A DNA stretch of 64,000 nt, from contig NZ_FQYR01000005.1 in the NCBI RefSeq assembly GCF_900141815.1, positions 372,001 to 436,000 of the forward strand, written 5' to 3'. Made by a program: the position numbers and the translations under genes. This DNA is from Rubritalea squalenifaciens DSM 18772. GTDB taxonomy: Bacteria; Verrucomicrobiota; Verrucomicrobiia; Verrucomicrobiales; Akkermansiaceae. The notes under the pieces are model-generated. The model was not told where the DNA came from. It made no database searches and worked only from the letters and a program-made list of their open reading frames with translations. This document shows, piece after piece, positions 33,974 through 48,777 of the stretch (within the stretch, counting starts at the first letter, position 1; each line of letters opens with the position of its first letter).

Positions 33974-36442
33974 TTAGTTTTTGAGTGAGCTGAAGTACTC
34001 TTGGTCTAGTTTCAGATACTCTTCTCTGGCTCGCTGGCAGCTCAGAGCCATGTCATCGATTTGCTTTCTGAGTGTGAAAAGCGTCTGGGTATCGGGTTGC
34101 TTGCTTTTACTGAACTCCGAGAATTCATTCATAAGGCCTATCTGTTTCGCAGTAAGGTCTTCCAGAAGGTTCTTGGCGCGCAGGCGGTCGGTATTAATGG
34201 AAGCAGACACGAGAAAAGCCTCATGCTCCTGAAGCTTGTGCTGCTTTGCTCGGGTATTTTCCAGTTCTTTGACTATCTTGTGCTGCTCAGTTTTGGTTTG
34301 TTCGAGTTGCTTTTCTAGATTGGGTAGCGCCTTTTGGGTTTTAGAAATGATTTCTTGAGTGGTCTTTAGAGAAGCATGCGCTTGTTTCAGAGCTTCATTG
34401 ATCTCTCTTCTGGAGTTGGTGAGTTTCTCCCAAGAGGGCACTGTGGCTTGCCACTTGGATTCCGTATCTTTTGAGCTTTGCTCAATCTTGGGGGTTAGTT
34501 TGACCAGAGAGTCGTGCTTCGCATAGCTAGATTTTTCCTGAGTTTTGAGTTCATTAAATTCAGACTCTCGTTTACTGAGTTGTTCGGATTTGGTGGCTAT
34601 TTTTTCTGTTAGTTGACTATTATCAGGTTCATTAGCGGCGGCTTCTTTTAGCTTCTCTAGATCGGCCTTTAGTTTGCTGATGTGATTATTTGCCTGTTCG
34701 CGCTTATGTTTGGCTTGATCACAGTCTTTTTGAGATTGTGAAAGCTGTTTCCTGTGGTCTTGGAGTGCGGTGCGAGTATTTTTCCTCAGCTCAAGAAGCT
34801 GCTTTCTCTCATCGTCTAGTTTGGAGATGGTTTCATTCAGTTCTCGGACCTGATGATTGTGTCTCTCAATGGCTTTCTTAAGCTCTTCACGTTTTCGGTT
34901 ATTCTTTGCGATGAGTTCCTTGCTTTGATTGCAGTTGGTTTGTAGCTGCTTGAATTTATCTGAGAGCTCCTTGTTTTTCGACTCAGTCGTTTGGATGGTA
35001 TTTGGGAGTTTGTTGACTTGAGATCGGATGTTTTCCAATCGTTGCGCGATGCCTGCAGGTATCGAGCTTAGAGAAGCTATGACTTGGTGTGTTTTGCTGT
35101 CCCAGACAGAAAGTTTTCCCGCATAGTCACTGGTGATAAAACGTTTTGCGTCGTGAGAGAAGGTTGCCTGAGTAGGTAAGGATTCTTTCGCTTCTATTTG
35201 TTTAACCATCTTGTAATCTGGCGTCCAAAGCTTGATCATGTGGTCACGGCCAACAGAGAGAATATGTCCATCTCTAGCCCAGTCGAAATCAAGAATTCCA
35301 GCCTTATGAGCCTCAAGCTTCTTGATCTCTTTGCCTGAGCGCATATCCCAAAAACGAAGCGTGCCGTCTTCTGAAGCGCTGGCCAGGAAGTTGGCGTCCG
35401 CTGACCAGCGTAGCGCTGTGACCCGGTCTTGGTGGCCTCTTAGGGTATGTAGCAGATTGCCGGAGTGAGCTTCCCAAACCCAGAGGCCTCCGTTGCGGTC
35501 TGCTGACGCCAGCAGGATACCGTCTGGAGAGTAAGCCAGAGCTGTCACCCAGTCGGTGTGTTTCTTGATTGAGTGCTCTTGGCTATTGGTGGCTGTTTGC
35601 CAAATCTTGATCAAACGAGAAGGTCCTCCTGTCGCAATAGCTTTCATGTCCGGGCGTATCGAGGTGGAGATCACCGAATCGTACTCTTTGGCAATTTGCA
35701 TGACTGGCTGACCATTTGTAATGCTGTAAGTAATGGTGGTGCCTGATTTGCCAGGTACGCCGCCTCCTACCGTGAGGAATTTACCAGATGGATGAAATGA
35801 TAGTGAGTCAGGCTGACCCTGAGGGAATGGCAATACGCCTGCCAGTCTGAGTGTGTCCGTGTTGTAAAGAAGGACTTGTCTCTGAGAGGTGATGGCTACT
35901 AGCGGTGCCCATGGACTGGAGGCGATGTCCCTCACCACGGTGGAATGTTCTGGGGTGATGACGGGTTCTAGTAGGACATGTTCGGGGAGTGGAGGTGGGC
36001 CATCAGGTTTTCCTGTGTCGACCTGACTGAAGGATATCTTAGGCGTATCTGATTTTTTAGCCTTGGAGTCTTTAGTTTCTAACAGTCCTCCATCAATCCA
36101 AGCCCGGATAAGATCGGTCTCCTTTTTGCTGAGCTTTTCACCTTTGGGGGGCATGAATGGCTCTTCTGAGTGTGTAGAAGTGAGGAAAATGCGGGAGCTA
36201 GCTCCATCACCTGCGTCGGCAATTTTACCACCAGAACCACCAGCCATGGCTGCGGAGTATGAGCTGAGGTCCAGGCCTCCCTTCTTCTTGTCTGGGTTGT
36301 GGCAGTTTGTACAAGAGTTCTCTAAGATAGGAAGAACGTGGTCTTGATAAGTGATCTTCTCTTGTGCTAGGGCACTGCTGATCAGTGCGGCTGGAATCAA
36401 CCTGAGGTAGATAGAGTTAAGTCTGTTGAAAAGTACGGGCAT
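33974..36442 (-). CDS. Exported cytochrome c-type, WD40 and coiled-coil protein (822 aa)
   Basis: After a signal peptide (about 1-26) comes a planctomycete-type cytochrome c domain with one heme motif C44-TN-C47-H48 and the following PFMPPKGEKL, whose Met may be the axial ligand. Six or seven WD40 repeats (about 160-470) include HTDWVTALAYSPDGILLASADR and HQDRVTALRWSADANFLASASE. From about 490 to 810 it is a long Lys/Glu/Gln coiled coil. It is the last gene of a tight four-gene operon. A periplasmic electron-carrying scaffold is the natural reading; its substrate is unknown. Confidence 0.88.
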   Translation of the reverse strand: MPVLFNRLNSIYLRLIPAALISSALAQEKITYQDHVLPILENSCTNCHNPDKKKGGLDLSSYSAAMAGGSGGKIADAGDGASSRIFLTSTHSEEPFMPPKGEKLSKKETDLIRAWIDGGLLETKDSKAKKSDTPKISFSQVDTGKPDGPPPLPEHVLLEPVITPEHSTVVRDIASSPWAPLVAITSQRQVLLYNTDTLRLAGVLPFPQGQPDSLSFHPSGKFLTVGGGVPGKSGTTITYSITNGQPVMQIAKEYDSVISTSIRPDMKAIATGGPSRLIKIWQTATNSQEHSIKKHTDWVTALAYSPDGILLASADRNGGLWVWEAHSGNLLHTLRGHQDRVTALRWSADANFLASASEDGTLRFWDMRSGKEIKKLEAHKAGILDFDWARDGHILSVGRDHMIKLWTPDYKMVKQIEAKESLPTQATFSHDAKRFITSDYAGKLSVWDSKTHQVIASLSSIPAGIAQRLENIRSQVNKLPNTIQTTESKNKELSDKFKQLQTNCNQSKELIAKNNRKREELKKAIERHNHQVRELNETISKLDDERKQLLELRKNTRTALQDHRKQLSQSQKDCDQAKHKREQANNHISKLKADLEKLKEAAANEPDNSQLTEKIATKSEQLSKRESEFNELKTQEKSSYAKHDSLVKLTPKIEQSSKDTESKWQATVPSWEKLTNSRREINEALKQAHASLKTTQEIISKTQKALPNLEKQLEQTKTEQHKIVKELENTRAKQHKLQEHEAFLVSASINTDRLRAKNLLEDLTAKQIGLMNEFSEFSKSKQPDTQTLFTLRKQIDDMALSCQRAREEYLKLDQEYFSSLKN

Positions 36443-36450
36443 GGCTCGAT

Positions 36451-39246
36451 CTAGTGGTTGAAGATGAATTCTTTGGAGTTCAGGAGAGCCCAGAAGATGT
36501 CTTCTAGTATGGCTTGCCGCTGATTGCGCTCGTTAGCCTCTTTCAGGTAGCCTTGTAGATTATTGAGTTCTTTTGCGGTCGGCTCACGGGTCAGTGTTGT
36601 GAGATAAAGGTGAGTAATGATCTCTTGGTTGGTTTTCTTCGCGTCCAGTTGCTGCTGGATGATTTTACCTTGGCGTATCCGGTTGTTGGTAGAGTCACCA
36701 TTGAGTAGGTGTAGTGCCTGCGAGAGATTGGGCTCTAGCTTCACCTCACAAGAACATACTGTCTGGCGTGTGGCGCGTCCGAAGGTGGTCAGGAAATAAG
36801 TAGAGGTATTTCCATCGGCAATACGTACCGCTTTAGCTCCCTTGGGGAGGCCTTTGAACTTGTTTGGCGTGTTGGTGACTTGAGAGATAGTGTCTAACAA
36901 TACTTCTGCTCGCAGGCGACGAGGGATGGCATGAGAAAAGTTGGTGGTATCACTCTGGTTGGTATCATTAACTTGTGTTGAAAGCTGGTAGGTGCGTGAT
37001 GTGCAGATGTCTCTGACTAGTCGGCGGAAGTCGTAATCATAGTCTACAAAATGCTGAGCTAAATCATCTAGTAGCTCCGGGTTGGAGGGGGGATTTGATA
37101 CCCGTACATCATCGACAGGGTTTACGATGCCGATTCCGAAAAAGTGATCCCACATGATATTGGAAACATTGCGTGCAAACCAGGGGTTGTCAGGAGATGT
37201 CAGCCAATCTGCAATGTGCTCACGGCGCTTTCTCCGGTCGTCCTCAGGTTCACCTCCGCCCAGAAACCTGGGCTTCACATTCTCTTTGGTGACCGGGTGT
37301 TTTACATCACCGCGTCCATCGAAGATAATCTGCTCACGCGGGTCTTCAGCCTGCTTGCGCTTCACCTCAGAGAAGAATGCTGCGAAACCATAGTAGTCGT
37401 CCATAGTCCAGCGGTCGAATGGGTGGTTGTGACATTGGGCGCATTGGATGCGGGTGCCCATAAATACCTGGGCCACATTCTCAGTGAGTTTCAGGTTGTC
37501 CCGCTCGATTTGGTAAAAATTGGTCGGAGGGTTGGCGAAGGTTCCGCCTTTGGCGGAGATGATATCCTTAACAATCAGGTTGAAGGGGCGGTTAGAGGCG
37601 ATCTGCTCGCGTAACCAGGTGTGGTAAAGAATGGCAGCCTTGTAGCTTACTTCATTGTTGAAGGTCCTAATTTGCAGGAGTTCAGCCCACTTCATGACCC
37701 AAATGTCGGTAAACTCTGGTTGTTCTAACAGATGGTCCACAAGTGCAGAACGTTTGTCGGTAGCTTGATTGGCGAGGAAGGAGGTTCTTTGCTCCGGGGT
37801 GGGCAGCTTCCCAAGGATGTCCAAATAGACGCGTCTGACAAATACCTCGTCTGAGCAAACGTCAGAGGGGGTAATGTGTAGCTTGCCTAATTTGCGGTGA
37901 ATGTGTTCATCGATATAATTGTAAGCTCCTATGGCGGGCGCGCTGTAATGGTCCTCTGCAGGGATCACAATTCCTTGAGAACCCTCTGTAAAGGTGTGGA
38001 ACCGAGCCATGATAAAAGCTTCTCCTCGTTTCTTCGACTCAACCTGTGCGAATGTTTTGGGTACGATAGAAAGTGAGTTGTCATTACTTGTGGTGAAGGT
38101 AGACAGCTCGGTGACATCTCGATCCGTGCCGTCAGAATATCTTGCTCTCACGGTGAATCTGGATCTCTCTTCGGAGCCTTTGGTGACGATTTGCTTAGGC
38201 TCCACCTCAATGGATGTGGGGTGAGGGATGTCATCCTTGTCGAACTTGGCCCCCGACTGGATCCATTTTAGAAGGGTGGCGTATCCTGGGGAGTCAGGTA
38301 GCAGAATTTTTCCTCCTGTGTGAGGAACTTGGCCAGCGGCTTTGGTCAAGAGTAGGGATTCTTCCGGGATCGCTAGATTCAGTCTTCTGCCTGGAAGTTC
38401 TTTGGTAAGTCGGTGGTAATCGCCCTTAGGGTCAAAGCCGAAAAGGGAGAGGTGGAAACCGTCTTGGCCCCGGGCTGAACCATGGCAGGAGCCGGTGTTG
38501 CAGCCAGCAGCTGTCAGGACTGGCATTACATCAAGCTGAAATGAAATCGGACGTTCCTTGTCGGCATCCTTGACGCTCAGAGGAACAAGAACCTTGTGTT
38601 CGCCCAGATTGATCTGGATAGAGGTAGTGCCATCTTTAAGAGGAGTTAGTTTGTTGCCCTCTATTTTGGCAATGCTTGGGTCAGTTAGGGTGTATGTAGA
38701 TATGTCTGTTAGGTCCTTTGTGGTGTCATCTTTGTAGTGTCCATAGATGATGAGCGAGTGATAATCTGAGGCGGACTCCAGGCTTATTTTTGAGGGGAAT
38801 GCACTCAGCTTCTCTAGGTTTTTGGAGAGTGCAGCCACGCTGGGCTGGGATTTTTTCTCTTTAATCGTGGCGCCTTCTGGCCAAGGGGCTTTGGCGGAAA
38901 ACCATTCTCTTAGCTTTTTGATCTCCTCTTGATTCAGTGGACGTCCTTTCGGCGGCATGATGTCATCGTGATCATGAGGTAGTGAGATGACTTTGAGCAG
39001 ATGAGATTCCAGAGGTGAGTCCATGCTGATTGCATCCTCGTTGTCTCCTCCCTCAAGAAAGGCTTCCAGGTTGTCTAAGCGCAGACCACCTTTGGATTTG
39101 TCAGGCCCATGGCATGAGATACAGTGTTGCGATAGAACTGAGGCTGCCTCCTCAAAGCTTGACTGAGCAGATAGGGGGATAGCCGTGGTGCTCAATAGCA
39201 GGGAAGAGAGGAGGATGGTGTTTCTGGATGTTCGCGGCATCGTCAT
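36451..39246 (-). CDS. DUF1549/DUF1553 multiheme protein (931 aa)
   Basis: A signal peptide is followed by a cytochrome c-type domain (C42-IS-C45-H46, then IMPPKGRPLN), an Ig-like beta domain (about 150-225), and a second heme-like motif of unusual CX4CH form (C249-NTGS-C254-H255). DUF1549 contains a third motif, CAQCHNHPFDRWTMDDYYGF, near 590. The C-terminal DUF1553 part includes DDLAQHFVDYDYDFRRLVRDI. This family is expanded in Planctomycetes and Verrucomicrobia; no reaction has been firmly assigned as far as I know. It lies 8 bases upstream of the cytochrome-WD40 gene and 5 downstream of the PPC gene. Confidence 0.9.
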   Translation of the reverse strand: MTMPRTSRNTILLSSLLLSTTAIPLSAQSSFEEAASVLSQHCISCHGPDKSKGGLRLDNLEAFLEGGDNEDAISMDSPLESHLLKVISLPHDHDDIMPPKGRPLNQEEIKKLREWFSAKAPWPEGATIKEKKSQPSVAALSKNLEKLSAFPSKISLESASDYHSLIIYGHYKDDTTKDLTDISTYTLTDPSIAKIEGNKLTPLKDGTTSIQINLGEHKVLVPLSVKDADKERPISFQLDVMPVLTAAGCNTGSCHGSARGQDGFHLSLFGFDPKGDYHRLTKELPGRRLNLAIPEESLLLTKAAGQVPHTGGKILLPDSPGYATLLKWIQSGAKFDKDDIPHPTSIEVEPKQIVTKGSEERSRFTVRARYSDGTDRDVTELSTFTTSNDNSLSIVPKTFAQVESKKRGEAFIMARFHTFTEGSQGIVIPAEDHYSAPAIGAYNYIDEHIHRKLGKLHITPSDVCSDEVFVRRVYLDILGKLPTPEQRTSFLANQATDKRSALVDHLLEQPEFTDIWVMKWAELLQIRTFNNEVSYKAAILYHTWLREQIASNRPFNLIVKDIISAKGGTFANPPTNFYQIERDNLKLTENVAQVFMGTRIQCAQCHNHPFDRWTMDDYYGFAAFFSEVKRKQAEDPREQIIFDGRGDVKHPVTKENVKPRFLGGGEPEDDRRKRREHIADWLTSPDNPWFARNVSNIMWDHFFGIGIVNPVDDVRVSNPPSNPELLDDLAQHFVDYDYDFRRLVRDICTSRTYQLSTQVNDTNQSDTTNFSHAIPRRLRAEVLLDTISQVTNTPNKFKGLPKGAKAVRIADGNTSTYFLTTFGRATRQTVCSCEVKLEPNLSQALHLLNGDSTNNRIRQGKIIQQQLDAKKTNQEIITHLYLTTLTREPTAKELNNLQGYLKEANERNQRQAILEDIFWALLNSKEFIFNH

Positions 39247-39251
39247 GGTTC

Positions 39252-41684
39252 CTATTTAAGTTCTTGGCGCAGCTGCTCTAGGCGTGACAGAGGCTTGGGT
39301 TTTGAACTGGGTTTCTTGCTTTCCTTCTTGGCCGTAGGTTTGTCTTTAGGAGGAGCATTTACTCGAAGGGATCCTCCGTGGCCTGTATTGTGGGAGATGT
39401 TGTGGCCGTTCTCAGGAACTTCGATATGGCAGAAGAGATTGGAATGGTTGCCTATGCGTGCATTCTCCGCTAGTTCGACAGGGATAAGCACTTCGGTGGT
39501 GCTGGAGTTAAGCGTTACAGGCTGGGCTTTGAAACCATCTGGGAGCCCGTGTAGTGTAAGTGTCGCATTTCCGGAGAAGTTGGCTAGTTGCTCTATCTTA
39601 CAGGGTAGCGAGACTGGGGTTCCCTGATTAGTGGCTGCTATTTCCAGCTTTGCTGTCAGATACGGAGTCTTGACGTTTAATGGGACAAGGTTTGAGGAGA
39701 GAAGCACCTTGCCCCTATCAGTATCACTGAGGGCAGACACGCAGAGTTGCCAGTTTTTGACAGGAGCATCACCTTTGATCGAGAGATGGTAGACGGCTTG
39801 ATTCTTTCCTTTAGGGATTTTTACATTTCCAGGTGCGGTGATTCCCGGAGGTAGCCAGGGGAAGAACAAGGTAATCTCTTTATCGAAGCCATCTTTACGG
39901 GTTACTGTGATTGTCAAATCGATCGTGCCGTTCTGAACAGCAGGGATCGCTGGTGTAGCCAGAGAAATATCAAAGGGCGCTGCCTCGGTCACAGCAATAG
40001 CCAGCTTGTCCGACTCGTAAGAGCAGTACACTCCTTGGTTGTTGATGGCGATGTGCTCAATATCCTCTGTGATGGCTTGCTTGAGATTTGGGTTTTTGGA
40101 TTCCACATAGACTGGGTAGAGGCCTCCGCTGAGAGGTGCTGTGTCTGTGGCTTCAAAATACAGTGGGATGTTATTCACCCCATTCTCGGCCGTTAAGGAG
40201 GTTAATTTTACACCTTCCGGTAAATTATGCGCAGTGGTGAAGACGGCTGCGGAATGCCTGTCTCTGGCTACGTTCAGTTGGTAGGCGAGGCTGCTACCTC
40301 GTGGAATGTTGATCACCTTGCGCAATTGTGAATCATTGCGATCAGAGCGATTGATAGAAGCTTGCAGCGTCTGCTTGCGCGGGCTCACCTCAATCCGGTA
40401 TGTAAAGTTCGGACCAGCGTTTGCCAGGTGGTCTCTGATATTAATGAAGTAAGTTCCGTCCTTGGGGATTTTAAAATTGAGGCTCGAATCTGGTCTATTG
40501 TTAGAGTCATCATTTGCAGCAAGTTGCTTGCCAGCGGAATCACGCAGAATGATTCGTGCGTCTAGAGGGGATCCTAGTTCTCTGGCCAAAACTTGGATGG
40601 AGATATCCTGATCTTTTTTTGCGGAAAACTGAAACCAATCGACATCATTTGTTTTGCTAATAATGCCATGAAACGCATGGGGAATCTCTTGAGCAGGTAG
40701 ACTTTCTTTGGAGCCGTTGTTTGGTTCTTGCTCGTTGGTGAATGGATAGTGGCTCAATTTTAAAGGAATGCCGCTAGGGGAGATGAGCTGATTTTCACTG
40801 GCATGGATGAGCGCTGGTGCAGACGGTTTGAGAGTTTTTTCCAAGCGAGAGCCATCTGTGTTGATAAATTGAAAGGAGCTTTCCTGGCCGCTTATAGCAC
40901 CGGGTGGGTAGATGGCTGCAGGGCGGGGAAAGTGCCCGGCGGTTAGAAGATAGTGAGAGGAATCCGACCCTTCGTAAGAGGACTCCCTGACAGCAAGGTA
41001 ATAGGTGCCATCCTTGGGAGCTCTAATAGAGATAAATGGGTCTTGTTTCGTGAGGGAGTTATCGTCTGAGGTGGCGATTTCCCTGCCGTCGGGATCTAAC
41101 ACGGACAGGTGGGGGTCGAAGAACTTCCTGCCCAGTCGCATGCCTGCGATTTCTGCAGAGAGGACTTGCCCGCGCTTGAGAGGTATTTGGTAATAATCGA
41201 CATCTTCGTTGGTTGTGATGCCGTGAATACACGTGTTCGGGGAGATGAGCTGGGCCTTGTCTCTACTGTCATTATTCTCCTTGGTTTCCTGATGAATGGG
41301 GTAGGCGGAGACATGAAACGTTTTCTGGTAGGTGATACCGTCCTCGCACCTGAGCCGCACTGGATGCATGCCGGGAGAGCTCTCAGGAGAAAGGTGAACC
41401 TGAAATGAAACGTGCTTTGGTGAGTGAATAGTAGGAGCCCCCTCTACGGTGACCCCTGGCTTGTAGAAGAGTAGCTCTTTGGCTTTATCGAGCCGATCGC
41501 CGTGGAAGTGTAATGTAGCTTTGGTCCCGTTTTGAATTGCCACGGGAGCCACGTACTTGAGTTCTGGGCTGTGAGCGTGGAGCTGCTGGGCCCCCGCGAA
41601 CGCTGAGGCGAGCAGGCTTACTCGGATAAATTGATTTCTTCTGGAGTTGGTGAGTGTCTCTACAGAGGGCATGACTCTGGGCAA
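39252..41684 (-). CDS. Exported PPC-domain (pre-peptidase C-terminal) protein (810 aa)
   Basis: An N-terminal signal sequence precedes an Ig-like region. Two PPC-type beta domains follow, one near 170-255 (LSVLDPDGREIATSDDNS, then APKDGTYYLAVRE) and one near 350-430 (IILRDSAGKQLAANDDSN, then IPKDGTYFINIRD). Further Ig-like modules and a Lys/Pro-rich tail (PKDKPTAKKESKKPSSKPKP) complete it. PPC domains usually accompany secreted hydrolases, but there is no peptidase here, so it may be a binding subunit. It is the second gene of the operon, between the DUF1501 and DUF1549/1553 genes. Confidence 0.85.
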   Translation of the reverse strand: MPRVMPSVETLTNSRRNQFIRVSLLASAFAGAQQLHAHSPELKYVAPVAIQNGTKATLHFHGDRLDKAKELLFYKPGVTVEGAPTIHSPKHVSFQVHLSPESSPGMHPVRLRCEDGITYQKTFHVSAYPIHQETKENNDSRDKAQLISPNTCIHGITTNEDVDYYQIPLKRGQVLSAEIAGMRLGRKFFDPHLSVLDPDGREIATSDDNSLTKQDPFISIRAPKDGTYYLAVRESSYEGSDSSHYLLTAGHFPRPAAIYPPGAISGQESSFQFINTDGSRLEKTLKPSAPALIHASENQLISPSGIPLKLSHYPFTNEQEPNNGSKESLPAQEIPHAFHGIISKTNDVDWFQFSAKKDQDISIQVLARELGSPLDARIILRDSAGKQLAANDDSNNRPDSSLNFKIPKDGTYFINIRDHLANAGPNFTYRIEVSPRKQTLQASINRSDRNDSQLRKVINIPRGSSLAYQLNVARDRHSAAVFTTAHNLPEGVKLTSLTAENGVNNIPLYFEATDTAPLSGGLYPVYVESKNPNLKQAITEDIEHIAINNQGVYCSYESDKLAIAVTEAAPFDISLATPAIPAVQNGTIDLTITVTRKDGFDKEITLFFPWLPPGITAPGNVKIPKGKNQAVYHLSIKGDAPVKNWQLCVSALSDTDRGKVLLSSNLVPLNVKTPYLTAKLEIAATNQGTPVSLPCKIEQLANFSGNATLTLHGLPDGFKAQPVTLNSSTTEVLIPVELAENARIGNHSNLFCHIEVPENGHNISHNTGHGGSLRVNAPPKDKPTAKKESKKPSSKPKPLSRLEQLRQELK

Positions 41685-41690
41685 TTTTAG

Positions 41691-43019
41691 TTAGGCGAGG
41701 ATTTCCTTCAGAACGCGACCTCCGTCGACGATCTCGATCGGGCGCTCACCAGGCGCCATGAGTTCCTTGTCAGCATTAATGCCCAGCTGGTGATAGATTG
41801 TTTTGGCAAAGTCCTCCACTGATACCTTGTCTTCTTCCGGCTCTCCTCCAAGGGCATCAGATTTACCAAAGACCATGCCTTTTTTGACACCACCTCCAGC
41901 CATCATGGTTGAAAAGACGCGTGGCCAATGGTCTCTGCCCCCAGTGTTGTTGATCTTGGGGGTTCGACCAAACTCGGTGGAAAGAATGACCAATGTGGAG
42001 TCTAGCAAGCCACGTTCTTCAAGGTCATTGATCAGCGCCGCGACAGCCTGGTCTACCGATGGAAGATTGGACTCGATACCCTTCTGAAGATTATCATGGT
42101 GATCCCAGGAGCCTGAAGTCAGTGATACAAAGCGTACGCCTGCCTCGACCAGTCTGCGCGCTAGGATCATTCGCTGGCCTGCTTGGTTGCGGCCATAGCT
42201 GTCACGAAGCTTGTCAGGTTCTTTTTCCAAATTGAATGCCTCTCGCGCTTTTTCGGAGGAGATCAGTTTGTATGCGTGTTGGTAGAAGGCGTCCATCGAC
42301 TCCAAGGCATCCGAATTTTCGAGAGTTCGGAAGTGATGGTCGACAGTTTCTAGTAGTGACTTGCGGCGATTGAATCGTGCTTCGTCCACTCCGCCGGGAA
42401 GATTCAGGTCGCGCACTTTGAAGTTACCCCGGGCAGGGTCTGCACCGAGTGCAAACGGGCCATGGGCTGAGGAAAGATAGCCAGAATTAGCATATTCGTT
42501 AGGGACATTGGGTACACACACATAGGGGGGAAGGTTGTTCTTGGGGCCGAACTCTTTGGAGATCACAGAGCCCATGGAGGGATACTCAACTGCCGGTGAA
42601 GGGCGGTAGCCCGTGAACATGTTGTGGGTGCCTCGCTCGTGAGCTGCCTCTCCGTGAGACATGGAATTAATCACTGTGATCTTGTGGGCGATTTTGGCCA
42701 GATGGGGGAGTTTTTCGCCAAAGTGAATACCGGGGATGGAGGTTTTGATTGAGGAAAAGGGGCCGCGATACTCTGGTGGAGCATAGGGCTTCGGGTCGAA
42801 TGATTCGTGTTGGGCGAGCCCTCCTGGCAAGAAAATCTGAATGACGGCCTTGGCTTTACCTTCGACAGTTTCGTAGTGCTTTTGAGCTCCCATGGCCTGT
42901 ATGCGGAGGAATTCTGGCAGGGTGAGACCAAGTCCACCTAAGAGGCCGACGTTAAGAAATTCCCGACGCGAAAAAGGTGAGGCCAAAGGGTTTCCTGGGC
43001 AGGATGTGGATTTTTTCAT
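41691..43019 (-). CDS. DUF1501 protein with Tat signal (442 aa)
   Basis: The ATG at 43019 is preferred over the upstream TTG at 43073. A twin-arginine signal SRREFLNVGLLGGLGL (about residues 17-32) is followed by the DUF1501 core: IQIFLPGGLAQHESFDPKPY, SMSHGEAAHERGTHNMFTGY and a late VILSTEFGRTPKINNTGGRDHW. The fold is alkaline-phosphatase/sulfatase-like, but no sulfatase formylglycine signature is seen. In Planctomycetes such genes regularly pair with DUF1549/DUF1553 genes, as here. It heads a four-gene operon with 5-8 bases between genes. Export of the folded protein fits the nearby tatA. Confidence 0.9.
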   Translation of the reverse strand: MKKSTSCPGNPLASPFSRREFLNVGLLGGLGLTLPEFLRIQAMGAQKHYETVEGKAKAVIQIFLPGGLAQHESFDPKPYAPPEYRGPFSSIKTSIPGIHFGEKLPHLAKIAHKITVINSMSHGEAAHERGTHNMFTGYRPSPAVEYPSMGSVISKEFGPKNNLPPYVCVPNVPNEYANSGYLSSAHGPFALGADPARGNFKVRDLNLPGGVDEARFNRRKSLLETVDHHFRTLENSDALESMDAFYQHAYKLISSEKAREAFNLEKEPDKLRDSYGRNQAGQRMILARRLVEAGVRFVSLTSGSWDHHDNLQKGIESNLPSVDQAVAALINDLEERGLLDSTLVILSTEFGRTPKINNTGGRDHWPRVFSTMMAGGGVKKGMVFGKSDALGGEPEEDKVSVEDFAKTIYHQLGINADKELMAPGERPIEIVDGGRVLKEILA

Positions 43020-43275
43020 GGCTAAGTGTGTATTTGGGTGAGTATGGGAGACTCCTTGGTTTTCTAGGTACAAACAGAGGTTACGTTACACCGGTGGTGA
43101 AACTTTTCAGTTTAATGTTGGAAATATCGTGGAAAGTCCTTTAGAGGGTAGATTGTCTAAGATGACATTTTGTTCATAAATGATGATGGCCGTAAACTGA
43201 GGTCCCCCAGCTCTACCCCAATGGTGCTGCATCATGGAATAAGACGCTGAACCAAGATATCAAAAAAGGGGACCC

Positions 43276-45045
43276 ATGAAGGATCAACATGTAGACGAGA
43301 ATACCAGCAATCAGACAGGGGAGAATGATTGGTGGCACAAGTATGTCGACTCATCCGAGTTGCCGCAGCAAGAGGAAGTTGTGGAGGATCAGCCCCTGGA
43401 AGATCCTTGGTGGCGGAAAGTACTCGATTTTAGGCCGACCAAACTCCAGCTAATTTCAGCGGCGGGAATCACAGTCGTGGTGAGTGCGGCCAGCATTATC
43501 ATAAGTCTCGCAAGCGATGTTTCATCGCTTGAAGCGTTGGTAGCGGAGCAGTCACATTTCAAGTCAGAGCTGGAGGAGAGGACATCGCAGCTTCATGCGC
43601 GAGGTGAGGAGATCGATCAGCTCAATTCACTGCTGGCTACAGAGAAGCGCTTGGTGGCAGCAAAGCAACAGGAACTGGAGAAAAGGCAGAGCCTGTTCGA
43701 AAAACACAAGCTAGCCGCTGAGTCAGAGATAGACCACTGGAAGCGACCCATGAGCAAGCTTCTGGGTACTCTGACAGATGTATACTCTATGAAGCTCGCC
43801 AGTAAGGACCCAATATACGGAGAGTTTGAAAACAAAGAAGAAGTATCGCGCCGAGTCCAGCAATCTTGGGAAGAGCTAGCTCAGGATCTGTCCTACTATG
43901 AGGAATATCGCAAGGAGGAGGCACTGCTGCGTGTCAGATTACTTGAGTCCTATGCCGCGGAAAAGAAGTGGAGTCAGGTAAAGCCTGAAGAGATTGATTG
44001 GAAATCGGCCGGCAAGGAGGCTGAGAAGCCAATGATTCTGGCCAAGACCTATTACTCAATGGCTATGCACTATCTCTCCACGGGGAATCAGGCTGATGGA
44101 CAAAAGAGTCTCGATCTTTGCAGGAAGTATGCCGCGGAGGTAAAAGGAGATGAAGTCAAACTGGCGTACACCCGGGCGATGCTCGATCTGCTCAAGGGCA
44201 GGCAGATAGTAGCTGAGGATCCGGCAGGCTCCTTGAAGTATTTTAAGTCCGCCATCGCTGGATTGGATAAGGTAGTCGTCAAGGTGCCTAGCAGTGTCAT
44301 GGTCCGCAGTGAGTTTGCAAAAGCCTGTCGTGACGGTGTGATGCTGTCCATGGAGGGGAATGATGCCGCTTGGGGAGAAGAGCTACAGAAGCAAGCCAAG
44401 CAAAACGCCAGTTGGTTAGTGAAGCATCATCCTGAGGTGAAGCTGCCTCACCTGATGTACGCTGAACTGGATATCGCGGAGGCTGAGGAGTGTGTTCGCA
44501 GTGGGCGTGAGGATGAGGTCGAGCCGCTACTGAAACGAGCAGAGAAATCCATCAAAGCTGCGGGAGGAGATGTTGTCTTGGAGTCCTCCGTGGAGGGTGT
44601 GCGTGCCTTTATTGCTTGGAATAAGGGCTACCTGACCAAGGCTAAGCAAGAGATGCAGAGCGAGATTAATAAGGTGAGTAAGCTCGTGAGTAGAGAACCA
44701 GCAAATATCGAGGCTAGATACAGGCTCTCAGCCCTACTTTGGGAACTCTCATCGATGCATACGGATCGGGAAGGTGCCCTAAAAGATGGTCATGCGGCAG
44801 CTGAACAGCTGAGGATCTTGCTCAAAGCCGGAGCAGGAGCTAGAGAGGCGTCCGTACGTAGGATGGCCGCCCTTGTATTGAGTGACCTGGGTCACTTGTC
44901 TGCCGAGAAGGGAGATAAAACGATCGCAAAGCAATGCTTTGGTGAGGCCAAGCAGCACTGGGGGTACTTGCGTGACAAGTGGGGTGATTGTGCGGAATAT
45001 CGTGAAGGTGAGGCTTGGTGCTCCTACAAGCTACGCAGGCTCTGA
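43276..45045 (+). CDS. Bitopic coiled-coil/helical-repeat protein, paralogue A1 (589 aa)
   Basis: An acidic cytoplasmic N-terminus (about 1-58) with two DxWWxK-type segments is followed by one membrane helix (about 59-78), a coiled coil (80-150) and a TPR-like helical region (160-580). It ends in KWGDCAEYREGEAWCSYKLRRL. It is clearly paralogous to the next gene along the whole external region, for example KLLGTLTDVYSMK against KTILESMQDVYAMK. The layout recalls the external part of Verrucomicrobia/Planctomycetes protein kinases with the kinase absent; that link is inference. It is the first of four plus-strand genes. Confidence 0.82.
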   Translation: MKDQHVDENTSNQTGENDWWHKYVDSSELPQQEEVVEDQPLEDPWWRKVLDFRPTKLQLISAAGITVVVSAASIIISLASDVSSLEALVAEQSHFKSELEERTSQLHARGEEIDQLNSLLATEKRLVAAKQQELEKRQSLFEKHKLAAESEIDHWKRPMSKLLGTLTDVYSMKLASKDPIYGEFENKEEVSRRVQQSWEELAQDLSYYEEYRKEEALLRVRLLESYAAEKKWSQVKPEEIDWKSAGKEAEKPMILAKTYYSMAMHYLSTGNQADGQKSLDLCRKYAAEVKGDEVKLAYTRAMLDLLKGRQIVAEDPAGSLKYFKSAIAGLDKVVVKVPSSVMVRSEFAKACRDGVMLSMEGNDAAWGEELQKQAKQNASWLVKHHPEVKLPHLMYAELDIAEAEECVRSGREDEVEPLLKRAEKSIKAAGGDVVLESSVEGVRAFIAWNKGYLTKAKQEMQSEINKVSKLVSREPANIEARYRLSALLWELSSMHTDREGALKDGHAAAEQLRILLKAGAGAREASVRRMAALVLSDLGHLSAEKGDKTIAKQCFGEAKQHWGYLRDKWGDCAEYREGEAWCSYKLRRL

Positions 45046-45128
45046 GTGGGGGTAAGTGCTTCATGGTAGGTGCGTGCGTGCCTGAATCAGGGCTGGTAAA
45101 TTAAGCGGGAGCTGTTAGCTTTTCTTTG

Positions 45129-46760
45129 ATGAGCAACGATCCTGTGGTCCCCAAATACTCATGGTGTTGCGATAAGCGGAGTATTACTGTTTCTGTACTA
45201 GCCTTAGCCAGTGCTGTGGGGCTTGTCGTCGTCGGTGAGAATCTGCTGCGCCGGAATGTGGAGGTGCGTGATCTCGTTGAGGAGCGTGATCAGTTGAAGC
45301 AGGAGTTATCAGAGCTTTCTGAAGTGAACGGCAGTCGTTTGGCTTCCCTTGAGCAAAGTGAAAAAGAGCTCAGGAAGAAGGTGGATGACCTTGAAGTCGG
45401 TAATCAGGCCTTGACCGAGCTTGTTGCGCTCAAAAACCGCGACTTGGCTCGTATCAAGGAGCCTGTGAAGACGATTCTTGAGTCTATGCAGGATGTCTAC
45501 GCCATGAAGTTTGAGGCGAATAATCCAGTCCTCAGGGAGCTGGAGAACCTGTCGCCACGTGGCCAGGAAATCAGAGACAAGTGGGAGCTGATTTGCAAAG
45601 AGCTGGAAAAGGATATCGATTTTAAGCGAGAATCTTCCTTGCTGAGGTTGCGCATAGCTCAGTCCTACATGGCTGCGGGCGTGTGGGAGAAGGTGGATGT
45701 TTCTAAAGTGGACTGGTCGCAAGCAGGCTTGGTGGATCGCAAAGCGGATATCCTTGCTCGTTTGTATTATGGCATGGCATTGTCCCAGATAGAGGGGGGC
45801 AAGCGCGAGCAAGCTGCCGCTTCTCTCGCCAAGTGCCTTGAGTATGCCAACCAGATGCCAGCGGATAGCGAGGGTAAAGAATATGCCCAAGCCATGGCCA
45901 ATATGCTGCAGGCCAAAATGCAGATCACAGAGCAGCCTGCTCTGGCATTGAAGCACTATGTGGCGGCAATCGGGCATCTGAGGAAGGTGGTCGTGGACAT
46001 GCCGGACAATGTATCGCTGCGATGCACCTTTTCCCAAGCATGCATGGACGGTGCGTTGATGACTTCGGGGGGGGAGAGTGCCGGCTGGTCTGAGAAGTTG
46101 CGCAAGGAGGCTCACGGTCATGCTTATCTTCTCACGCAGAAGCACCCCGAATTAAAACTGGCTCATGAGATTTGTGCTGAGAATGACATCTTAGTGGCTG
46201 AGCAAAAACTCCGGGACGGAGAGACTTCTGTGGTGGAGCCATTACTTCAACGGGCAGAGAAATCTCTGCAGAAAGTGGGAGGTAATTCAATCCTCGAGTC
46301 TTCTATTCTGGGAGTGAGAGCCTTCATGGCCTGGGATAAGGGAGAGAGGGAGAAGGCTGAGCAGATGATGGAGAAGGCGGTCTCTAACATGCGTAGCTAT
46401 CAGGCAAAGCATCCAGAGGAAGTAGAGGCTAAATACCGTTTGGCGTCGCTATACTGGGAGCGTTCATCGATGAGAAATAGTTCCCCGCAAGCGATTGCTG
46501 ATGGGAGGCTGGCTGCCGAGCAGTTGGCGGCTCTCATTAACCATGGTGCGGGAAGAAGAGAGGCATCGGCTCGTAGGATGCTGGCGATTATTTTTGGAGA
46601 TATTGGCCACATGGCGGCAGAAGCCGGTAAGTCCAAGGAGGCAAAACAATATTTTAGTAGCGCAAGAGACCAATGGAGCTATCTTAGTGCTAAATGGGGC
46701 GATTGTGATGAATACCGTGAAGGGAAACGCTGGTGTACCTCGCGCATCAATGGCCTCTGA
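45129..46760 (+). CDS. Bitopic coiled-coil/helical-repeat protein, paralogue A2 (543 aa)
   Basis: The start is ATG at 45129; the frame also opens at TTG 45126. A short cytoplasmic part, one membrane helix (about 22-41, VSVLALASAVGLVVVGENLL), a coiled coil (45-105) and TPR-like repeats follow. The end KWGDCDEYREGKRWCTSRINGL nearly copies that of A1, and shared blocks include VEPLLQRAEKSLQKVGG and AARRMLAI-type helices. A tandem duplicate, diverged strongly at the N-terminus. It lies 83 bases after A1 and 36 before B1. Function is unknown, probably a scaffold spanning the inner membrane and periplasm. Confidence 0.8.
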   Translation: MSNDPVVPKYSWCCDKRSITVSVLALASAVGLVVVGENLLRRNVEVRDLVEERDQLKQELSELSEVNGSRLASLEQSEKELRKKVDDLEVGNQALTELVALKNRDLARIKEPVKTILESMQDVYAMKFEANNPVLRELENLSPRGQEIRDKWELICKELEKDIDFKRESSLLRLRIAQSYMAAGVWEKVDVSKVDWSQAGLVDRKADILARLYYGMALSQIEGGKREQAAASLAKCLEYANQMPADSEGKEYAQAMANMLQAKMQITEQPALALKHYVAAIGHLRKVVVDMPDNVSLRCTFSQACMDGALMTSGGESAGWSEKLRKEAHGHAYLLTQKHPELKLAHEICAENDILVAEQKLRDGETSVVEPLLQRAEKSLQKVGGNSILESSILGVRAFMAWDKGEREKAEQMMEKAVSNMRSYQAKHPEEVEAKYRLASLYWERSSMRNSSPQAIADGRLAAEQLAALINHGAGRREASARRMLAIIFGDIGHMAAEAGKSKEAKQYFSSARDQWSYLSAKWGDCDEYREGKRWCTSRINGL

Positions 46761-46796
46761 TGACAGATTTTGCCTAATTTAGGCGTATATCCCCCT

Positions 46797-47528
46797 ATGT
46801 GTAAGTGTTTTATATTAATGGTTGGAGTGTTTGCTCTAACGGCGGATAGCTATGGCCAAGAGCCACCGCTGACTATTGTCATGAATAGGAATGCTGTTCT
46901 CGAGAAACGCAAAGCCTATTCTGAGACAATCAAGGCTCTTGAGTCCTACCGGAATGCTCAGAGGAAAGAATATCAGGAAGCTAATTCCTCCGTGAAGAAA
47001 GAGATTCTGGCTGCAGTTCGCATGCGCTTGATTCAGGATTTGTGCGATGAGATTTTTCCCGCCTGGTACGGTACAACGTGGTCTTCCGCTGGTAAAAGTG
47101 AGCAGCCTGGCCAAGGGTCCATATCGCATGGTTACTTTGTTTCAACCAGCCTTCAGCACGCAGGTTTCAAGCTGGATCGTGATGAAGTGGCGAGGCAGCC
47201 TACAGAGAAAGTCATAGTCGCCATGACGAAAGGGAAAAGGGGAGTCGTGAGCGGGAGATCTATGGATGCGGTCATGAAATATTTACAGAGTCAAGGTGAT
47301 GGTATCTATCTGGTGGGGATGGACAGGCATTTTGGCTATATCACCGTCAGGGGGCCTGATGTGCGTTTTGTTCACTCCAGTAGCGATCGGCTTCTCCGAA
47401 TGGTGGTTTGTGAGCCGGCTCTGGGCGAGAACGCTTTGAGTGAGGCGCGATATCGTGTTTTTGGGAAACTGCTGGATGATGCCATGCTTGTGAGCTGGAT
47501 GAAGGGTGAACAGTACACCATCAAGTGA
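46797..47528 (+). CDS. Secreted protein, paralogue B1, lacking the putative catalytic Cys (243 aa)
   Basis: The ATG at 46797 gives a signal peptide (MCKCFILMVGVFALTADSYG). The mature protein is a helix-rich first half and a conserved second half with PGQGSISHGYFVSTSLQHAGFK, GIYLVGMDRHFGYI (His178) and VRFVHSSSD (His193). In the next gene the equivalent of His111 is Cys110. If the family is a Cys-His hydrolase, as the pattern suggests, B1 is a non-catalytic copy. I know no firm function. The last 60 residues (RVFGKLLDDAMLVSWMKG) are almost identical to B2. Confidence 0.72.
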   Translation: MCKCFILMVGVFALTADSYGQEPPLTIVMNRNAVLEKRKAYSETIKALESYRNAQRKEYQEANSSVKKEILAAVRMRLIQDLCDEIFPAWYGTTWSSAGKSEQPGQGSISHGYFVSTSLQHAGFKLDRDEVARQPTEKVIVAMTKGKRGVVSGRSMDAVMKYLQSQGDGIYLVGMDRHFGYITVRGPDVRFVHSSSDRLLRMVVCEPALGENALSEARYRVFGKLLDDAMLVSWMKGEQYTIK

Positions 47529-47569
47529 TTTGCTGATAAACTTGGAATGTGGCCATAGTAGGTAAGACT

Positions 47570-48298
47570 ATGTGTAAGTTTATTGTGTGTGTGCTAATGG
47601 CTGTGGCAGGCCCTTGCCTGCAAGCGCAGCAGCCGCCACTCAGTAGTGAGGTGAGGGGCGATGACTTGAAGAAAAAGAGGGCTGAGTATAACGAGGTAGT
47701 TGAAGCTCTTGAAGGCTATCGTCAGGCTCAATGGAAACGCTATCGGGAAGCTAGCCTGGTGGCAAAGAAGGCAGTACTCAGTGAGGTGAGGGAGAGGTTA
47801 ACGAGTGATCTCTGCGAGAAGATTTTTCCTGCCTGGTATGGCACGGAATGGGCTTTTTCAGGGATGTCCAAGGTGCCCGGAGAGGGACAAGTGGCGTGTG
47901 GGTATTTTGTGTCGACCTGTCTTCTTCATTCAGGCTTTAAGGTGCAGCGTATCAAAATGGCTCAGCAAGCGTCTCAGAAGATCATCATCACCATGACAGG
48001 AGGCAAGAAGGATGTCTCTGCAGGTAAGTCCATGCCCAGGATTCTGGAGAGATTAAAGAAGAGTGGGGATGGGATCTATATTGTGGGGTTGGATCAACAC
48101 GTAGGGTTTGTGTCAGTGAAAGGGGATGTGATCAGATTCGTGCACTCAAACTATTATCAGCCGGATAACAAAGTGGTTTGCGAGGAGGCTATTGGGAAGA
48201 ATCCCTTGAGTGACTCAAATTACCGGGTGTTTGGAAAACTGTTGGATGACGGCATGCTCGTAGCGTGGATGCGTGGCGATTCTTTCCATATAAAATAA
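47570..48298 (+). CDS. Secreted putative cysteine hydrolase, paralogue B2 (242 aa)
   Basis: The ATG at 47570 gives the signal peptide MCKFIVCVLMAVAGPCLQAQ. The conserved half has PGEGQVACGYFVSTCLLHSGF with Cys110 before GYF, then GIYIVGLDQHVGFV (His177) and IRFVHSNYYQ (His192). Cys followed by His in a strand is the order of NlpC/P60-like or CHAP-like papain-fold hydrolases, so a peptidoglycan or peptide hydrolase is plausible; the exact family is not identified. It is 41 bases after B1 and 68 bases before the next small gene. Identity to B1 is high near the C-terminus. Confidence 0.72.
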   Translation: MCKFIVCVLMAVAGPCLQAQQPPLSSEVRGDDLKKKRAEYNEVVEALEGYRQAQWKRYREASLVAKKAVLSEVRERLTSDLCEKIFPAWYGTEWAFSGMSKVPGEGQVACGYFVSTCLLHSGFKVQRIKMAQQASQKIIITMTGGKKDVSAGKSMPRILERLKKSGDGIYIVGLDQHVGFVSVKGDVIRFVHSNYYQPDNKVVCEEAIGKNPLSDSNYRVFGKLLDDGMLVAWMRGDSFHIK

Positions 48299-48366: not shown

Positions 48367-48777
48367 GTGATTAAACCGCAAAAAATTCTGCTGGGTAAAG
48401 GGCTGGATGACCTTCCGTTTGGACTCACTCAAGATCAGGTGAAAGAGGTTTTGGGAGACCCGGAGGAGAGGGACCAAGTCGACCTCGGCGATGAAATGTC
48501 TATTGCATGGCATTACTGGGACCTGGGAATTTCCCTGAACTTTGATGAGAGTGAGAACTACGGGCTGACATCCATTGATGTGGCTAGTCCTGAGGTGACG
48601 CTCTTCGGCAAAGCACTCATCGGGATGACCCGTGAGGAGGTGAAGGATTTCCTCGATTCTCAAAGTATCGGGCAGTCCGTAGACGAGGTGCACAATGGCC
48701 TGGTCTATCCTGACGTGGAGCTGAGCCTGTGGTTCAGTGGTGGGGAACTCTCAGAGATCCAGTGGGCCAAGCTCTAA
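48367..48777 (+). CDS. Small cytoplasmic protein, SMI1/immunity-like topology uncertain (136 aa)
   Basis: Starts at GTG 48367 (an ATG at 48362 runs into TGA at once). The acidic 136-residue protein has no signal or membrane segment. It contains a repeated alpha-beta pattern: PFGLTQDQVKEVLGDPEERD near 22, then IGMTREEVKDFLDSQSIGQ near 84, each followed by a strand pair. The MTREEV/DPEE pattern is like SmpA/BamE or cytoplasmic proteins related to it, but the family is not certain. It is followed by a bidirectional terminator shared with rpmE. Confidence 0.65.
   Translation: MIKPQKILLGKGLDDLPFGLTQDQVKEVLGDPEERDQVDLGDEMSIAWHYWDLGISLNFDESENYGLTSIDVASPEVTLFGKALIGMTREEVKDFLDSQSIGQSVDEVHNGLVYPDVELSLWFSGGELSEIQWAKL

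Follow-up and report, generated by a model that had tools for sequence, protein, structure and literature searches.

A tandem gene cluster in Rubritalea squalenifaciens combining kinase-less TPR membrane proteins with two secreted NlpC/P60-like proteins, one a probable pseudoenzyme

Do four closely packed genes that form two pairs of paralogues make up a conserved functional unit, or did they come together in a single lineage? The question is raised by a block in the genome of Rubritalea squalenifaciens DSM 18772 (4.32 Mb in 17 contigs), in which we analyzed one stretch of 64,000 bases (hereafter the window; G000:C5:372001-436000). The block consists of four ORFs, A1, A2, B1, and B2, all on the forward strand and tightly spaced (Table 1). 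The original prediction saw in them a membrane scaffold and a secreted putative hydrolase, each duplicated separately, with no evident family name, kept together by selection, and candidates for an undescribed envelope module.

The block itself is real: four ORFs lie in close order on one strand and form two paralogous pairs, with 39% identity over 534 columns for A1 and A2 (E 8e-123) and 48% over 246 for B1 and B2 (E 7e-89). The separate duplication of each gene is borne out by the trees, which join A1 to A2 (100/95) and B1 to B2 (99/96) as sisters. When the likely ATG starts are taken, a choice that is a matter of judgement, the genes are 83, 36, and 41 bases apart. GC and GC3 contents are similar inside each pair (52% for A, 49% for B). 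A promoter-like scan was uninformative (2 found versus 4.1 expected), and a terminator-like scan gave no strong signal (6 found versus 4.5 expected from a shuffled background). The small protein encoded after B2 on the same strand (48367-48777) matches BamE at 23.8 bits, for a Pfam cut-off of 23.2.

Table 1. Features of the gene block and of the divergent neighboring cluster, in window coordinates
Feature	Position	Strand	Basis or remark
PSCyt1-PSCyt2-PSD1 protein, divergent cluster	36451..39246	-	same cluster as the DUF1501 gene
PPC-domain protein, divergent cluster	39252..41684	-	same cluster as the DUF1501 gene
DUF1501 protein, divergent neighbor of A1	41691..43073	-	orthologue flanks pseudokinase gene in relatives
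A1, single-pass membrane protein with coiled coil and TPR region, without kinase domain	43276..45045	+	589 aa
A1 membrane span, residues 60-78	43453..43509	+	K/R 4 before versus 0 after
A2, A1 paralogue of the same architecture, TPR solenoid in model	45129..46760	+	ORF from 45126, ATG 45129
A2 TPR superhelix, about residues 163-544	45612..46757	+	structural matches; Pfam TPR_12 below cut-off
B1, secreted NlpC/P60-like protein without catalytic Cys, probable pseudoenzyme	46797..47528	+	ORF from 46770, likely ATG 46797
B1 codon CAT (His) at catalytic Cys position	47127..47129	+	alignment
B2, secreted NlpC/P60-like protein, C-H-H triad intact	47570..48298	+	ORF from 47549, likely ATG 47570
B2 Cys117 codon TGT, predicted nucleophile	47897..47899	+	alignment
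B2 His184 codon CAC, predicted general base	48098..48100	+	His in 82/82 rows
B2 His199 codon CAC, predicted third triad residue	48143..48145	+	His in 81/82 rows

Relation of A1 and A2 to pseudokinase-TPR proteins

The search of the genomes of the order with A2 gave matches in 102 of 288. The relatives found are open frames of 680-960 residues, and the family members outside Rubritalea mostly have 680-905. They are Verrucomicrobiales membrane proteins of about 850 residues, in which an N-terminal kinase-like domain precedes the membrane span, the coiled coil, and the TPR-like repeats. All three relatives that were scanned pass the cut-off of Pfam Pkinase (46.6, 75.6, and 56.7 bits versus 31.7). 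The catalytic-loop Asp of HRD is replaced in 24 of 24 distinct relative genes read (Asn in 23, Gln in one), a count based on 28 aligned rows, including five repeats of the same gene, and on L195, read by eye (L061 is cut off). The loop reads HGNLKP or is HGQLKP-like, and with HG[N/Q] in place of HRD the longer relatives look like pseudokinases. At the beta-3 position some have Lys and others Arg, and the rows shown retain the Asp of the DFG region; given these residues, the pseudokinases may bind ATP.

A1 and A2 lack a Pfam Pkinase match at E 1. Their homology to the longer proteins starts behind the kinase domain (query residues 310-834 and 311-831 of 837), and nothing else in their own genome matches the region behind that domain. 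The genus scan found A in 10 of 12 Rubritalea genomes, as a single copy in the nine other than the window's. The 10 complete Rubritalea copies, among which the one of G289, truncated by a contig end, is not counted, are open frames of 551-600 residues and have no room for a kinase domain. In a tree of 31 rows, the 11 Rubritalea copies form one clade (100/98); the placement of G290, which has a very long branch, is unsure. This kinase-less clade and the sisterhood of A1 and A2 argue for one loss of the kinase domain, followed by a tandem duplication in the lineage of the window. A1 and A2 clearly exemplify the reduction of such a gene to its membrane-tethered TPR scaffold, without the pseudokinase part; a literature search of open-licence papers for Rubritalea and pseudokinases found no paper.

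The prediction of A as a membrane scaffold is supported. Each of the two proteins has a single strong hydrophobic stretch. The positive charges before the span make an N-in, C-out orientation likely, which suggests that the TPR side is periplasmic. The KWGDCxEYREGxxWC end noted in the original prediction is indeed common to A1 and A2, where it represents the local version of a C-terminal block, W...EY.EG..W[C/S], of their relatives. The model of A2, built from two sequences, has a mean pLDDT of 69.1 and is weak in the N-terminal third; it forms an antiparallel solenoid of helical hairpins, and its TPR part mostly reaches pLDDT 75-95. It matches LGN, Rap, MalT, and other TPR or helical-repeat structures with Z of about 16-21. 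At the level of the model, these matches mean a TPR-like arrangement and nothing beyond it, and the TPR fold does not indicate the bound partner. Pfam TPR matches of the A proteins are below the cut-off (TPR_12 E 2.7e-05). NlpI is absent from the 50 structures listed for the A2 model, and some likeness to it is possible all the same.

The B family and its altered member B1

That the B pair lacked a family name was also too strong a statement, as it was for A, which belongs to the pseudokinase-TPR family: B has an NlpC/P60 fold, in line with the secreted hydrolase that had been predicted. Neither B1 nor B2 matches a Pfam or NCBIfam model, and for B2 (P0004) this holds for Pfam even at E 0.1. 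Both N termini carry a hydrophobic export signal in which we saw no lipobox by eye; some relatives seem to have one. Relatives occur in 78 of the 288 genomes of the order and in many phyla, the search of genome contigs having given at least 528 confirmed loci, of which the best 80 were kept. One B alignment draws on 30 loci, from which L025, L018, L032, and L038 were left out, and a later set uses 67 of 83 aligned rows. The family has strongly conserved blocks of its own, W-x-T-x-W-x-F-x-G and LAQQ.

The AlphaFold model of B2, made with 67 sequences, has a pLDDT of 92.8 and a pTM of 0.87. A Foldseek search of the PDB gave nothing below E 0.001 (best 0.014), and VIA-align was run on its candidates. 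The best match was MepS in the NlpI-MepS complex (8xup_K; Z 11.8, rmsd 4.0 over 138), and others were 7v6u (Z 10.9), CwlO (10.0), Spr (2k1g, 9.8), and the DUF1460 protein 2im9 (9.0); the further NlpC/P60 peptidases span Z 9.6-10.9 and DUF1460 proteins 8-9. The PDB sequence search with B profiles gave nothing meaningful. In the model, Cys117 opens the helix 117-127 and His184 precedes the strand 185-191, as in the papain-like alpha/beta fold; two long helices (residues 37-96) form an N-terminal hairpin before the catalytic domain. The Cys117-His184-His199 triad is conserved in the family alignment, as counted over 82 of 83 rows, since the two L137 copies have one name (the count of 112 members given below takes both). 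C-H-H triads are described for NlpC/P60 proteins (Spr) and DUF1460 in an excerpt of PMC10318531. Profile matches to known families are weak: of the 67 members, 18 match AmiA-like (PF07313), with E 0.0027 at best, and 6 match the MepS equivalog model NF008096, with E 0.0059 at best, B2 not being one of them. The curated cut-offs of PF00877 (NLPC_P60) and PF07313 were passed by none, the best relatives reaching E 0.05 and 0.0027; one example scores 15.9 bits versus a cut-off of 27. B belongs to a widespread NlpC/P60-fold family for which neither Pfam nor NCBIfam has a dedicated model, and a peptide or amide bond of peptidoglycan is the most likely target of B2.

The catalytic Cys is present in 111 of 112 distinct B members, and among the matches listed it is His in B1 alone. 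Part of the collection was gathered with a Cys-containing pattern, which favors Cys-bearing members; when only the rows of the plain protein search are counted, the Cys is found in 26 of 27 and B1 is again the exception. As the sole exception among the 112 matches listed, B1 is probably a pseudoenzyme. It breaks 6 of the 36 family-conserved columns, versus 1 in B2 and 0 to 5 in the other 65 members, and its end branch in the B tree is 0.93 versus 0.37 for B2. The two belong to a Rubritalea group (99/97) that also includes G291, G292, and G273, each with a single B gene that has retained the Cys. The pair would be a natural live/dead pair of an NlpC/P60-fold family in one strain. For NlpC/P60 pseudoenzymes, the literature search of open-licence papers gave no paper.

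Two other interpretations of the B proteins deserve discussion. Acyltransferases, deamidases, and proteases are also found among papain-like folds, and the B proteins might modify an envelope molecule other than peptidoglycan. This would agree with the failure of every member to pass the Pfam or NCBIfam cut-offs of NlpC/P60 and amidase models, with the family-specific blocks, and with the N-terminal helical hairpin. We find it somewhat unlikely, because peptidoglycan hydrolases make up nearly all of the best structural matches, with their Cys-His-His geometry in the same order. B1, for its part, might be a decaying duplicate heading for loss and not a selected pseudoenzyme, as its lost nucleophile and long branch would allow. 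Yet its frame is intact over 252 codons, it is still 48% identical to B2, and it matches 30 of the 36 conserved columns, including His184 and His199, which makes decay an unlikely explanation and leaves a retained pseudoenzyme as the reading that we follow.

Duplicated and additional B genes occur elsewhere as well. A third, more distant B gene (40% identity) with the Cys lies on another contig of the same genome (G000:C4:62343-63050; L009, L196), tail to tail with a gene for a TPR protein (Pfam TPR_12, 113 bits). Such a TPR neighbor recurs in 7 of 19 loci of the third gene's subgroup, and for the second B subgroup no recurrent neighbor is trustworthy. A second tandem pair of B genes, both with the Cys, is present in an unrelated bacterium (L137 7854-9616, JALGZD010000110.1).

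Linkage of the two pairs and the neighbors of A

If the four genes formed a module, A and B should be found together in other genomes. The scan of the 288 genomes of the order found both in 57, A alone in 45, and B alone in 21. Within the family, A is present in 62 genomes, B in 65, and both in 52; outside it, the numbers are 40, 13, and 5, so that their shared presence is largely a matter of family. Among the 57 genomes with both, A and B lie within 20 kb of each other in the window's genome only. Distances were computed by script in the 52 family genomes and read by eye in G093, G104, G110, G141, and G155, where the genes are on different contigs; draft assemblies may hide linkage at contig ends. 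An A gene is absent from the flanks of 98 other B loci (the 80 best of at least 528, and 18 more, some genes having been fetched twice), and a B gene is absent from the flanks of the 6 A loci checked. Independent occurrence of A and B in most genomes, named beforehand as speaking against a module, is what we found. We thus rejected a conserved A-B module, with one close pair in 57 genomes having both, and the results support neither a selective pressure that keeps the two pairs side by side nor a recurring envelope module. Since A-B linkage was seen in no other genome examined, there is no evolutionary sign of joint work. The four-gene grouping is a lineage-specific cluster, and A-A-B-B does not behave as a conserved module. 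In G158 and G279, B genes close to DUF1501 clusters suggested a second link; we took this as chance, because these genomes have 90 and 25 DUF1501 matches and the copies there share only about 30% identity with that of the window.

The conserved neighbor of A within the family is a different one. In 11 of 22 A loci from outside Rubritalea that were fetched with flanks (21 of the same family and one f4 locus; those with the pairing are among L176-L194), genes for DUF1501 and PPC-domain proteins lie divergently upstream, as in the window. The DUF1501 protein of the window is 72-77% identical to these 11 copies and about 30% identical to other DUF1501 proteins there. The divergent A-DUF1501 pair occurs in 23 of the 36 genomes that have both genes, the window's own included, as counted over the genomes common to the A scan and to a DUF1501 scan that covered 97 genomes of the family (of its matches, the 52 with at least 70% identity were counted, and four with less than 50% were left out). 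In six of the nine other Rubritalea genomes, A follows a PLD-domain gene (L150, L151, L152, L238, L239, L240); this neighbor was not seen at A in G243 and G290, and in G289 the contig ends on that side. As six of nine have left the DUF1501 site, the link is not strict. The PLD-type phospholipase is cardiolipin-synthase-like, as named by eye. The next gene of the DUF1501 cluster in the window (33974-36442) encodes a fusion of a PSCyt1 domain, WD40 repeats, and a long coiled coil.

These data open the possibility that the two pairs are unrelated neighbors, A working with the divergent DUF1501-PPC-PSCyt cluster and B having landed behind it. The frequency of the divergent pair, the high identity of the DUF1501 copies beside A, and the restriction of A-B proximity to one genome all point this way. 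Against it stand the departure of most other Rubritalea A genes from the DUF1501 site and, in the block itself, the common strand, the short distances of 36-83 bases, and the lack of a strong terminator signal, which would allow one transcript. We regard this reading as quite possible, and almost as likely as that of a joint cluster. The function of the DUF1501-PPC-PSCyt protein group was called unknown in the excerpted part of a 2017 paper on Verrucomicrobia (PMC5615132), and the conserved divergent pairing of pseudokinase-TPR and DUF1501-PPC-PSCyt genes may be the more useful lead.

A proposed joint cluster and its likeness to known systems

We propose, with about even confidence, that the block is a species-specific cluster assembled from two unrelated families, with kinase-less TPR docks and a live/dead pair of hydrolases. 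A descends from an inner-membrane pseudokinase whose TPR domain likely lay across the membrane; homology and the tree show that the kinase domain was lost in Rubritalea, and the kinase-less gene was then duplicated in tandem at its usual locus in this lineage. Left without a catalytic part, A1 and A2 would act only by binding, as membrane-tethered TPR docks. A gene for a secreted putative hydrolase with the NlpC/P60 fold settled behind the A pair and was tandemly duplicated. By its fold and triad, B2 would most likely cleave a peptide or amide bond of peptidoglycan through Cys117, His184, and His199. B1 has lost its nucleophile and evolves faster; most likely, it would bind B2 or, uncut, the substrate of B2, and so tune the activity of its twin. 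The notion of B1 as a noncutting binder is suggested by analogy with RipD, an inactive NlpC/P60 protein without hydrolase activity, which an entry in the reference list of PMC6628586 titles a peptidoglycan binder.

The weakest step is the one that would join the two families, namely that the TPR domains hold B1 and B2 at the inner membrane as NlpI holds MepS; we consider it doubtful. In excerpts of PMC11211486 and PMC7049810, the TPR lipoprotein NlpI is an adaptor that recruits MepS and promotes its dimerization and activity. A TPR dock beside a MepS-like enzyme is in that light a sensible guess, no more, and a docking relation of the NlpI-MepS type between A and B is plausible by analogy. An even bolder and rather improbable version would make the cluster a peptidoglycan-remodeling station new to this lineage, in which two former pseudokinases serve as TPR docks that hold B2 and its dead twin B1 at the inner membrane, the latter setting where or how fast B2 cuts.

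Comparison with known proteins shows what could be shared and what differs. The unnamed pseudokinase-TPR proteins of Verrucomicrobiales are homologous to A1 and A2 over the whole region that opens with the membrane span and runs through the C-terminal W...EY.EG..W block; they have a Pkinase domain at the N end, whereas A1, A2, and the other complete Rubritalea copies are without the whole kinase-like domain. The AmiA-like/DUF1460 amidases (PF07313; 2im9, 4h4j) have the papain-like fold and C-H-H triad in common with B, but the profile matches of B relatives are below the family cut-off. RipD of Mycobacterium, like B1, lost the catalytic residues of an NlpC/P60 domain. The losses are independent, B1 lies in tandem with a predicted active paralogue, and peptidoglycan binding by B1 would be hypothetical. 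The closest likeness is to MepS (Spr) and NlpI of Escherichia coli. B2 shares the catalytic fold of MepS and the C-H-H triad, and A, like NlpI, is a TPR solenoid, likely facing the periplasm. However, the lipoprotein signal of MepS is not visible in B1 and B2, which add an N-terminal helical hairpin, and NlpI is an outer-membrane lipoprotein, whereas A is a single-span inner-membrane protein of pseudokinase descent whose binding to B is putative. The remodeling station, if real, would parallel NlpI-MepS at the inner membrane, having arisen independently and including a pseudoenzyme as its own regulator.
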